DNA of 57,585 nucleotides from Alphaproteobacteria bacterium (lineage in GTDB: Bacteria; Pseudomonadota; Alphaproteobacteria; Puniceispirillales; UBA1172): positions 1 through 57,585 of the forward strand of contig JADHOM010000014.1 of assembly GCA_016778985.1 (NCBI GenBank). The letters run 5' to 3'. The notes beneath the pieces were generated by a model. That model searched no databases, had not been told where the DNA came from, and saw only the letters and a program-made list of their open reading frames with translations. Numbering within the stretch: position 1 is the first letter of the stretch; each line of letters opens with the position of its first letter. The position numbers and the translations under genes are program-made. Of this stretch, positions 34,003 to 37,466 are shown piece by piece.

Positions 34003-35619
34003 TTAACTCAGGTTGAAAAAATCATTGCCTTTATCGTCAATAATAATAAAGGCGGGGAAGTTTTCCACCTCAATTTTCCAGACAGCTTCCATGCCGAGTT
34101 CAGGATATTCTAGAACCTCTACTTTGCGGATAGCATCAAGGGCCAGCTTTGCCGCGGCCCCACCGACAGACCCAAGGTAAAATCCGCCATAGGTGGCGCA
34201 GGCGTCCCGTACCTCGCGGCTACGATTACCTTTCGCCAGCATAATCATAGACCCGCCAGCCTCTTGAAAGCGTCTGACATAGCTATCCATGCGGCCAGCG
34301 GTGGTCGGCCCGAAACTGCCCGATGCCATGCCTTCAGGCGTCTTTGCAGGGCCAGCATAATAAATCGGATGGTTGCAAAAATAATCAGGCAGTTTGCCGT
34401 CTGCCTCTAGCTGTTCTTGTAATTTGGCATGCGCGCTGTCACGCGCCACAATCAATGTTCCGGTCAATTTGAGCCGCGTTTTAACAGGATACTGGCTGAG
34501 CAGGGCGCGAACTTTATCCATAGGTTGATTAAGATCAACAGCGACCGCATCATCTTCATCCATTTCAACCGTTGGCAGGAAACGCGCCGGATCATGCTCT
34601 AGCTTTTCAAGGAAAATCCCGTCTGTGGTAATCTTCGCCATGGCCTGCCTGTCGGCGGAACATGATACGCCAATGCCAACAGGGCAAGAGGCACCATGAC
34701 GCGGCAGACGAATAACCCTCACATCATGACAAAAATACTTGCCGCCAAACTGTGCGCCAATCCCCAAATTGCGGGTAATTTCCAAAATGATGTCTTCCCA
34801 TTCGCGGTCACGATAGCCGGCGCCAAGCCCATCACCTGATGTTGGCAGATGATCAAGCCCGCGCGTTGATGCCATTTTAACAGTCTTAAGGTTTGCCTCC
34901 GCCGAGGTGCCGCCAATGACAATAGCCAAATGATAAGGTGGACAGGCGGCTGTTCCTAATGTGCGTAAAGTTTCGTCTATAAATTGGCTAAGCGTTTCAG
35001 GGTTCAAAATCGCTTTGGTTTTTTGAAACAAGAAGGTTTTATTCGCCGAGCCGCCGCCTTTTTGAATGAAATCGAGATGATATTCCATGCCCTTGCCAGC
35101 ATATAGATCAATTTGAGCAGGCAGGTTTGTCGCGGTATTAACCTCATCAAACATGGATAGCGGTGCGACTTGCGAATAGCGCAGATTGCTCGTCTGATAG
35201 ACTTGCCAGACCCCACGCGCCAATGCCTCACCATCATCACCGTCAACGAGAACACGATCACCACGGACACCATTGATAATCGCCGTTCCCGTATCCTGAC
35301 ACATCGGCAGCACTTGATCAGCAGCAATGACTGCATTTTTGAGCATTTCTAGCGCCACAAAATGATCATTATGTGAGGCATCTTTATCATCAATGATAGC
35401 GCGCAGTTGCGCCAAATGAGATGCTCGCAAAAAATGTGAGATTTCCTTAAATGCGCGTTCTGAAATAAGGCTAAGCGCCTCAGGCTGAACTCGCAAAAAT
35501 GATGTTTCGCCAGAACTGCCGCTTAAAGTCACCTCTTCAACATAATCGGATGTTATATGCACCCACTCACATTCAGGGCGAGTTTTTGGTAAAATAGGGC
35601 TGTATTTAAATTCAGTCAT
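34003..35619 (-). CDS. fumA: Fumarate hydratase, class I (Fe-S)
   Basis: This [4Fe-4S] enzyme hydrates fumarate to malate in the TCA cycle. At 538 residues it is the fused two-domain form. Candidate cluster cysteines are in [29 protein letters not shown] and [27 protein letters not shown]. The C-terminal beta-domain carries [17 protein letters not shown]. It is oxygen-labile compared with class II fumarase. It lies 5 bp downstream of sspB on the same strand and is probably co-transcribed with it. Confidence 0.95.
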
Positions 35620-35624
35620 AAGTG

Positions 35625-36113
35625 TCAGCTTTTATTACGAAAGGTATCTAATGATACGATATCGGCGCTTTTGGCGGCAATGTCCCCGGTGTTGGTATCG
35701 TTACTATCGTCTGCTGAGATGTCTTCTACGTTATCGTTATTTTCCATCATGGTGAATTGTAACCCGAACCCTGCTGACGGATCATTAAACTCTGTTATAG
35801 CGGTAAATGGGATGCTGAGATGCTCTTTCTGGCCGCCAAAGGATAGGGTGATTTCAAAATGATTGTCATCAACAAACAAATCCCAGAACTGATGCTGAAT
35901 GATAATAGTCATTTTATCAGGATGGCTTTCTTTTAAGCGGGACGGGATATTTACATAATCCTGATTGGTGTTAAAGGTTATGAAAAAATGGGTTTCACCA
36001 GCAAGACCTTGCTCTTGAGTGATCATCAAAGCAGACCTCACCACATCTTTTAAGGCATTTTCAACCAGCAGCTCATAATTTATTTGAGATTTAATACCAT
36101 TTTCATCTGACAT
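35625..36113 (-). CDS. sspB: ClpXP adaptor SspB, alpha-proteobacterial type
   Basis: This adaptor binds the ssrA tag and delivers tagged proteins to ClpXP. It has 162 residues. The compact substrate-binding fold is seen as [36 protein letters not shown] and [20 protein letters not shown]. An acidic linker leads to a C-terminal ClpX-binding-like tail ending [10 protein letters not shown]. Its N-terminal helix [15 protein letters not shown] is characteristic of the alpha-type dimer. The tmRNA gene that makes the tag lies about 100 bp upstream on the same strand. Confidence 0.93.
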
Positions 36114-36219
36114 TTAACCATCCCCCCATAGCGTATTACTATAATCTGATTCTATATCAGTTTTCAAATACCCATTTGGGGTTGCAAAAAATAAAACGCC
36201 AAAAGGGATCCGCCAAACG

Positions 36220-36246
36220 TAAAACGGCAGGGGTAAACCCCTGCCG
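36220..36246 (-). terminator. Rho-independent terminator of ssrA
   Basis: The perfect 9-bp stem CGGCAGGGG / CCCCTGCCG with a 4-base loop is followed by TTTT on the minus strand. It ends the coding piece of tmRNA. Confidence 0.85.
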
Positions 36247-36588
36247 CCGGATTATTCTGTTGCAAGGTCAATCCAGACCCCGCCAACAGGGCTCAACCTG
36301 TTGGAGTTTAAGAGTGGTTTTTGTAACCGCAATTAAGCAGCGACAGCAACCGGAGCATAGTTGTCGTTTGCAACTACTATTTTGGCCCGATATCGGTGGT
36401 GCCATGCCGAGCGAAAACTTTGCCTTTACTACATGCGTCGATCCTGACTCGCCCCCATAAAAATTTTTCCGATAGAACGTTTCTTATACAAAAGTTCCTA
36501 AAGAAATTATGGTGGAGGCGCCGGGCACTGCCCCCGGGTCCGCTCTGCCTATTTCGCATCGCGTTTATCGCCATAGCTGTTACCAGCA
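36220..36588 (-). ncRNA. ssrA: Transfer-messenger RNA, two-piece (circularly permuted) form
   Basis: This RNA rescues stalled ribosomes and adds a degradation tag. On the minus strand the acceptor piece comes first and ends in GGCGCCTCCACCA (CCA end at 36510). A spacer of about 53 nt (36509-36457) follows, then the coding piece opening GGGGGCG (36456-36450). These two ends pair into a seven-base acceptor stem with one G-U. The tag frame is 36371-36333 and encodes ANDNYAPVAVAA then stop. The piece ends in a strong hairpin. The T-stem (CCGGG/CCCGG) encloses GGCAGTG instead of the standard T-loop. The 5' end is set from the predicted promoter. Confidence 0.95.
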
Positions 36589-36593
36589 TGACT

Positions 36594-36622
36594 AATATAA
36601 TCTCTTTTAACCGCATTGCCAA
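36594..36622 (-). promoter_or_regulatory. Promoter of ssrA
   Basis: On the minus strand, TTGGCA (36622-36617) and TATATT (36599-36594) are separated by exactly 17 bp and are placed to start transcription near 36588, just before the acceptor piece of tmRNA. The divergent thyA gene begins 50 bp away. Confidence 0.7.
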
Positions 36623-36671
36623 GACATAGCCTTCGGCTTAACATATATTCAAGCAAAGGTGAGGAGACATT

Positions 36672-37466
36672 ATGCAAGCCTATCTGGATTTATTGGGCCA
36701 TGTGTTAACACATGGCCACCGCAAGGATGACCGTACAGGAACAGGCACATTATCAGTATTTGGCTGGCAAAGCCGCTATCCGCTTGCCGCCGGCTTCCCA
36801 TTAGTCACAACAAAAAAACTTCACCTGAAATCAATCATTCATGAATTGCTGTGGTTCATTAAAGGCGACACAAATATCGCCTATCTCAATGAAAATGGGG
36901 TTAGAATTTGGGATGAATGGGCAGATGAAGATGGTGATCTTGGGCCTGTTTATGGGCGACAGTGGCGGCATTGGCAAACCCCTGATGGTGGTGCAGTGGA
37001 TCAATTATCAGATGTTGTCAATTTGATCAAAACTAATCCAGATTCGCGGCGGCTGTTGGTGACGGCTTGGAATCCGGCTGATATTGGCCAGATGGCTTTG
37101 CCGCCGTGCCATTCGCTTTTTCAATTTTACGTCGCGGATAATAAACTGTCTTGCCAGCTTTATCAGCGCAGTGCCGATATTTTTCTGGGTGTGCCGTTTA
37201 ATATTGCTAGCTATGCGTTGCTGACACATATGGTGGCCCATGTTACCGGATGTGAGGTTGGCGATTTTGTTCATACAATGGGTGATGCTCATCTCTATGT
37301 TAATCATCTGGATAAAGCCAAGCTGCAATGTCAACGTGCGCCAAGGCCGTTGCCGCAGTTAAAATTGATTGACCCACCCGATCAATTAGAGGCATTTCGC
37401 GCCGATCACATCGTCATTGAGGGCTATGATCCGCATCCGCATATTACCGCTGAGGTTGCCGTATGA
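36672..37466 (+). CDS. thyA: Thymidylate synthase, folate-dependent
   Basis: This enzyme methylates dUMP to dTMP using methylene-tetrahydrofolate. It is full length at 264 residues. It opens [20 protein letters not shown] with [11 protein letters not shown], has the [19 protein letters not shown] segment, and the catalytic Cys in [13 protein letters not shown] near residue 146. [19 protein letters not shown] follows. Its stop overlaps the DHFR start as ATGA, a classic thyA-folA pair that regenerates the folate it oxidises. Confidence 0.97.

Follow-up and report, generated by a model that had tools for sequence, protein, structure and literature searches.

Permuted tmRNA gene and SspB adaptor gene side by side: an old alphaproteobacterial gene order, most likely transcribed as separate units in one SAR116-type genus

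The window, by which we mean the whole stretch of 57,585 nucleotides of alphaproteobacterial DNA that was analysed here, contains an ordinary permuted tmRNA gene (ssrA) and, directly downstream of it, an ordinary gene for the ClpXP adaptor SspB; such pairs are of a known kind, and the arrangement here looks locally uncoupled. Judging from genome comparisons, we regard it as highly probable that a standard permuted tmRNA and its adaptor are present in a gene order that is old within the class, and that the two genes are transcribed separately in this genus. The features concerned, numbered from the first letter of the window, are:

34003..35619, minus strand: fumarate hydratase gene, following sspB (PF05681/PF05683)
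35625..36113, minus strand: sspB, encoding an alpha-type ClpXP adaptor SspB of 162 aa (PF04386, 129.5 bits)
36138..36167, minus strand: predicted promoter-like site of sspB, TTGAAA-18-TATAGT (10/12), 24 nt before the sspB ATG
36223..36248, minus strand: predicted intrinsic terminator separating ssrA from sspB (GC-rich hairpin, then TTTT)
36246..36626, minus strand: ssrA, permuted alphaproteobacterial tmRNA gene (RF01849 at full length, plus RF04321)
36249..36456, minus strand: coding piece (tRNA 5′ half and message part), starting at 36456, 3′ end approximate
36333..36371, minus strand: tag reading frame, ANDNYAPVAVAA and stop (from the Rfam match and tag extraction)
36457..36509, minus strand: spacer of 53 nt between the acceptor and coding pieces
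36510..36586, minus strand: acceptor piece, comprising the tRNA 3′ half with the T arm and ending in an encoded CCA at 36510
36526..36532, minus strand: T-loop GGCAGTG, seven bases, class-typical
36594..36622, minus strand: predicted promoter-like site of ssrA, TTGGCA-17-TATATT (10/12 positions)
36672..37466, plus strand: thyA, divergent neighbour of ssrA (PF00303)

A covariance model search, which the initial annotation had proposed as a check, returned a complete alpha tmRNA at 36246-36626 on the minus strand. The Rfam model RF01849 (alpha_tmRNA) matches there with 268.7 bits (E 3.8e-77; the gathering score is 50 bits) over its full length, model positions 1-355, and the model of permuted tmRNA, RF04321, matches at 36333-36572 on the same strand with 149.5 bits; despite these matches to two covariance models, ARAGORN called no tmRNA over the window. 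The two hits bear out the parts list of a permuted two-piece gene that had been drawn up from the letters alone: the order is acceptor, spacer, coding piece, and the spacer, put at about 53 nt beforehand, measures exactly that. In this family, the spacer is removed on maturation. The 5′ end of the acceptor piece was placed by the model's first helix, and UAUAUU stands in the RF01849 consensus at the position of the promoter-like site of ssrA. The tag frame has GCA as its alanine resume codon, reads ANDNYAPVAVAA and closes with a stop, and the tag ends in AA; this exact tag is common to the genus relatives and occurs in no other genome of our class sample of 289 genomes. The window's genome also has an SmpB gene, at another location. 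Set against RF01849, which describes the Caulobacter type, the gene shares the permuted order, the encoded CCA, an AND-type tag with an AA end and a class-typical T-loop, and nothing notable differs, ANDNYAPVAVAA being an ordinary tag variant. As to the T-loop, its sequence had been read correctly, but the peculiarity ascribed to it is ruled out: GGCGGTA, GGCAGTA or GGCAGTG stands in 229 of 251 loops (extracted by script from 263 class genes), and the consensus loop of RF01849 has the same form.

The adaptor is likewise typical of its branch. The window's SspB clears the PF04386 cut-off of 27 bits and has the SspB core domain, and by sequence its nearest solved relatives are the chains 2qas, 2qaz (a chain named SspB) and 2nys, the SspB-like region covering residues 10-143 (2qas) or 10-161 (2nys). 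We take 2qas and 2qaz to come from Caulobacter and 2nys from Agrobacterium. Together with these alphaproteobacterial proteins it forms one sequence family with a conserved C-terminal tail; in the window this tail, VSLDTFR, is intact, and L155, F158 and R159 are invariant in 12 of 12 aligned proteins. Presumably, it is the tail that docks on ClpX. The NCBIfam equivalog model of the ClpXP specificity-enhancing factor, in contrast, gives only 19.3 bits where its cut-off is 135, which is to be expected for the divergent alpha branch of SspB. On the other side of ssrA, a dihydrofolate reductase (DHFR) gene lies, like thyA, on the strand opposite ssrA.

How common is this neighbourhood? In the window, sspB is the next gene downstream of ssrA on the same strand, as initially described, although the distance given then, about 100 bp, was too small: 132 bp separate the end of the RF01849 match from the sspB ATG. 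Among 289 class genomes, a tmRNA above the cut-off was found in 263, SspB in 253 and both in 246, with the two genes on one contig in 214 of these 246. In 180 of the 246 genomes, all among the 214, sspB lies downstream of ssrA on the same strand and within at most 1 kb; 23 further pairs lie within 10 kb and 11 farther apart, and at least one adjacent pair occurs in 105 of the 140 families that have both genes. Within the window's order (101 genomes sampled), the genes are adjacent in 73 of 75 genomes with both, the two remaining cases being one of separate contigs and one of overlapping matches. A tmRNA was also found upstream, on the same strand and within the 1.5-kb flank, at 68 of 80 named loci fetched via an SspB query, and the loci of Puniceispirillum, Magnetospirillum, Bartonella, Bradyrhizobium, Methylorubrum and Maricaulis agree with the window in order and strand. 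The neighbourhood survey called for at the outset thus reveals an adjacency that is widespread rather than unique, and chance is ruled out as its origin by the same count of 180 in 246. As far as genome sequences can tell, ssrA followed by sspB is an old class trait that this SAR116-type order has kept.

Do ssrA and sspB share a transcript? In many lineages of the class, coupling is plausible. In 65 of the 180 pairs, from 43 families, fewer than 45 nt lie between the end of the tmRNA match and the sspB start codon (start codons were set by a script rule and not individually checked), a distance too small to fit a promoter for sspB alone outside the RNA gene. By the strict rule, 2 of the 180 pairs, one of them the window, have an intrinsic terminator after ssrA. 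We regard such absent terminators as weak proof of class-wide co-transcription, and the short gaps as the better argument, because non-adjacent ssrA genes also seldom have a terminator and because the terminal helix of tmRNA may itself act as one in part of the genomes. Indeed, a looser rule (G-T pairs and one mismatch allowed; within 150 nt) finds terminators in 9 of 77 non-adjacent versus 6 of 180 adjacent cases, and the terminal helix followed by T, searched in a 60-nt window, occurs in 36 of 78 non-adjacent versus 57 of 180 adjacent cases. As for a general sigma-70-type sspB promoter, the E. coli consensus says little in this class: where gaps are at least 45 nt, a match at 10 of 12 positions was found in 3 of 115, while shuffled sequences lead one to expect 1.6.

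Whereas many class pairs thus have gaps too short for an sspB promoter of their own and nearly all are without a strict terminator, the window's genus has both elements between the genes. In the window, the terminator folds at -21.8 kcal/mol (z -5.6) and is followed, ahead of sspB, by the promoter-like site. All 7 genomes examined from the genus have a terminator on the 3′ side of ssrA, and in an alignment of the seven, ATTTGAA and TATARTA remain conserved as blocks throughout, even though gap lengths range from 107 to 185 nt; the consensus of the element is TTGAA-N17/18-TATARTA. Some members of another family of the same order (f161) also have a terminator. Because a terminator and a separate promoter-like element lie between the genes, ssrA and sspB are most likely transcribed as separate units in this genus. 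The coupling of tag production and tag recognition by read-through, which the initial annotation had considered, is consequently unsupported in this species; as the main mode it is unlikely, and on the strength of terminator and conserved promoter-like element we reject it as such. Among the findings that would speak against its idea, the initial annotation had itself named an sspB promoter of its own with no read-through, and a predicted promoter of this kind is what the genus shows. Intrinsic terminators leak, and some read-through past the ssrA terminator is possible.

Two other views of this arrangement have to be weighed. According to one, the genes form a true operon here too, polymerase passing the terminator so that tag and adaptor are supplied in a coupled manner. 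It draws on the co-directional pair being kept across the class, on the short gaps just described and on four relatives of the same family but of other genera that have no terminator and whose best promoter-like sites reach 7 to 9 of 12 positions; set against this are the stability of the hairpin with its run of TTTT and the combination of terminator and conserved promoter-like element in every one of the seven genus members, which together make an operon in this species improbable. According to the other, the adjacency has no functional meaning and is just an inherited gene order that is slowly being lost. That the order is ancestral is clear, and in 66 of the 246 genomes with both genes these are not directly adjacent or stand on separate contigs, and such genomes presumably still work. 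However, the window's other ssrA neighbours have been kept far less. The window's own neighbours served as queries against 85 class genomes in which the sequence extends for at least 1.4 kb to either side of ssrA; SspB turned up downstream in 57, but fumarase downstream in 10, and ThyA, Mrp and DHFR upstream in 14, 9 and 8, respectively; the counts for Mrp and fumarase are lower bounds, since in a window-like arrangement both (fumarase partly) lie beyond the flank, whereas ThyA and DHFR would fall inside it. Moreover, 22 of the 23 pairs separated by no more than 10 kb hold order and orientation. Erosion of gene order is thus a doubtful explanation of the adjacency, albeit one that retains some weight.

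Separate transcription from an anciently ordered gene pair stays our reading of the window's genus. A wider scenario, which has a reasonable chance of being right but which we offer tentatively, is that in much of the Alphaproteobacteria ssrA and sspB may form one RNA-protein operon whose tag and adaptor coevolve, and that the window's genus would be derived, its link having been cut by a terminator and a new promoter. If true, the tmRNA precursor would serve as the leader of the sspB message, and maturation of the tag RNA would be tied to synthesis of the tag's reader.

Is the adaptor matched to the tag? Tags were extracted from 256 of the 263 class genes (G154, G108, G141, G152, G124, G255 and G248 were left out) by a procedure that prefers a frame starting ANDN; the tag of G284, probably cut short, was counted as lacking the motif. 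Where SspB is present in the genome, 237 of 240 tags have an N-x-N motif, versus 7 of 16 where none was detected (Fisher p 2e-10, a value that ignores relatedness), and 213 of 240 versus 5 of 16 start with ANDN. Used as a check on the same genes, ARAGORN called 222 of 263, with 212 tags in agreement and 10 differing (6 of them where the extraction had none), and its tags alone give N-x-N in 206 of 210 with SspB versus 5 of 12 without. Shuffling residues within the tags of SspB-bearing genomes leaves the motif in 63 of 240 on average. This covariation of motif and SspB presence supports adaptor-tag matching, and it sits well with the proposed division of the window's tag into an SspB side (ANDNYA) and a ClpX side (VAVAA), in that N-x-N tracks SspB and tags end in AA. 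At four loci with SspB present (L260 in G111, L269 in G129, L257 in G085 and L294 in G103), the tags are 24-32 residues long and have at least one internal N-x-N without an ANDN start.

The most extensive case of a missing adaptor is the order of genome G098, which, going by the tag, we take to be the SAR11 group. SspB was found in 0 of its 117 genomes and tmRNA in 101 of 117. The 29 tags examined there, from best-scoring loci mostly of one family (f162), read ANDELALAA in 19 cases, ANNKLALAA in 6, ANNKVALAA in 2 and ANESYAIAA and ANDDLALAA in 1 each, and N-x-N occurs in 0 of the 29. According to one published account, the neighbours of the Pelagibacter tmRNA are thyX and COG4696, and not sspB (PMC2704228).

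Could N-x-N track SspB merely by way of phylogeny or tag length, and not because SspB reads it? The genomes lacking SspB represent few lineages and have mostly short tags, and relatedness, as said, does not enter the Fisher test; besides, two nearly complete genomes without detected SspB (G030 and G188) keep ANDN, and a third genome (G134) keeps internal N-x-N motifs. Three of the five SspB-less genomes with an ANDN start (G202, G002 and G151) are incomplete (92, 81 and 79 per cent complete), so that SspB may simply be absent from the assembly. Such an explanation fits less well with the SspB-bearing tags that do not start with ANDN, of which 24 of 27 still contain N-x-N versus 12.5 after within-tag shuffling, or with the 29 motif-free tags of the SspB-less order, beside which several families outside that order are without both SspB and motif. 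We thus think it unlikely that shared descent or tag length accounts for the pattern, and retain adaptor-tag matching. In the searchable literature (most subscription journals fell outside this scope), no title or opening abstract that was retrieved dealt with ssrA-sspB adjacency or with a joint loss of tag motif and SspB. The Caulobacter adaptor and the two-piece tmRNA are said to have been the subjects of work by Lessner in 2007 and by Sharkady and Williams in 2004.

What would the gene pair of the window do? Sequence comparison shows what the genes are and how they are ordered, the predicted terminator, the conserved promoter-like element and the covariation of tag motif and adaptor. From knowledge of the two families, we infer processing, tagging, binding and delivery as follows. 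Once paired, the two transcribed ssrA pieces would make up a single tmRNA that, together with SmpB, would rescue stalled ribosomes and append the tag (A)ANDNYAPVAVAA. With ANDN as the region of contact, SspB would then attach to the N-terminal part of the tag and tether the protein so marked to ClpX, which in turn would engage the C-terminal VAA. The parts most worth pursuing lie beyond the window, namely the pairs with short gaps in other lineages and the disappearance of the motif where SspB is missing. With short-gap pairs in 43 families, one apparently uncoupled lineage and lineages devoid of both reader and motif, the survey yields a testable claim on how bacteria keep a degradation tag and its reader in matched supply, and the natural variation among tags offers a test of the residues that SspB needs.

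Several minor observations concern the 3′ end of ssrA. In the SspB-less order, its last 24-30 nt (core GGCACCTGGCAACAGAACGCCCC) recur downstream at intervals of 0.2-2 kb, with small genes in between, at positions 712, 1136, 1962, 2195 and 3699 of L437, 689, 1564 and 2273 of L438, 3564, 2168 and 294 of L440, 1117 and 288 of L441, and 573 and 2582 of L444. Copies are also present at L439 885-1956 and L442 358-1731 (minus strand), stretches without a tmRNA above the gathering score. The repeat-bearing loci had been chosen for extra weak tmRNA matches (25 of the 117 genomes there have at least two matches); among 31 loci not chosen for repeats, a second copy of a 10-mer was found in 2 and of a 15-mer in none. 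The repeats resemble serial attachment sites at a tmRNA 3′ end. Across the class sample, duplicates of the ssrA 3′ end downstream of the gene, in short stretches only, were seen in 1 of 180 adjacent versus 1 of 83 other genomes, which leaves them unsupported as a cause of sspB relocation. An additional hairpin similar to the terminal helix of tmRNA stands directly after ssrA in L118 (G012) and L108 (G145) and 73 bases after it in L234 (G004); it may be a remnant of past integration.

Unusual tmRNA matches were encountered elsewhere, too. One genome has, beside its full alpha_tmRNA match, a second and weaker one of 72.8 bits (G096:C5:288509-288849). In four others, the matches span 563-907 bp (G172:C27:2350-3256, G268:C22:2206-2983, G089:C59:31873-32506 and G073:C36:18959-19521), lengths that point to large insertions or long spacers in these genes.
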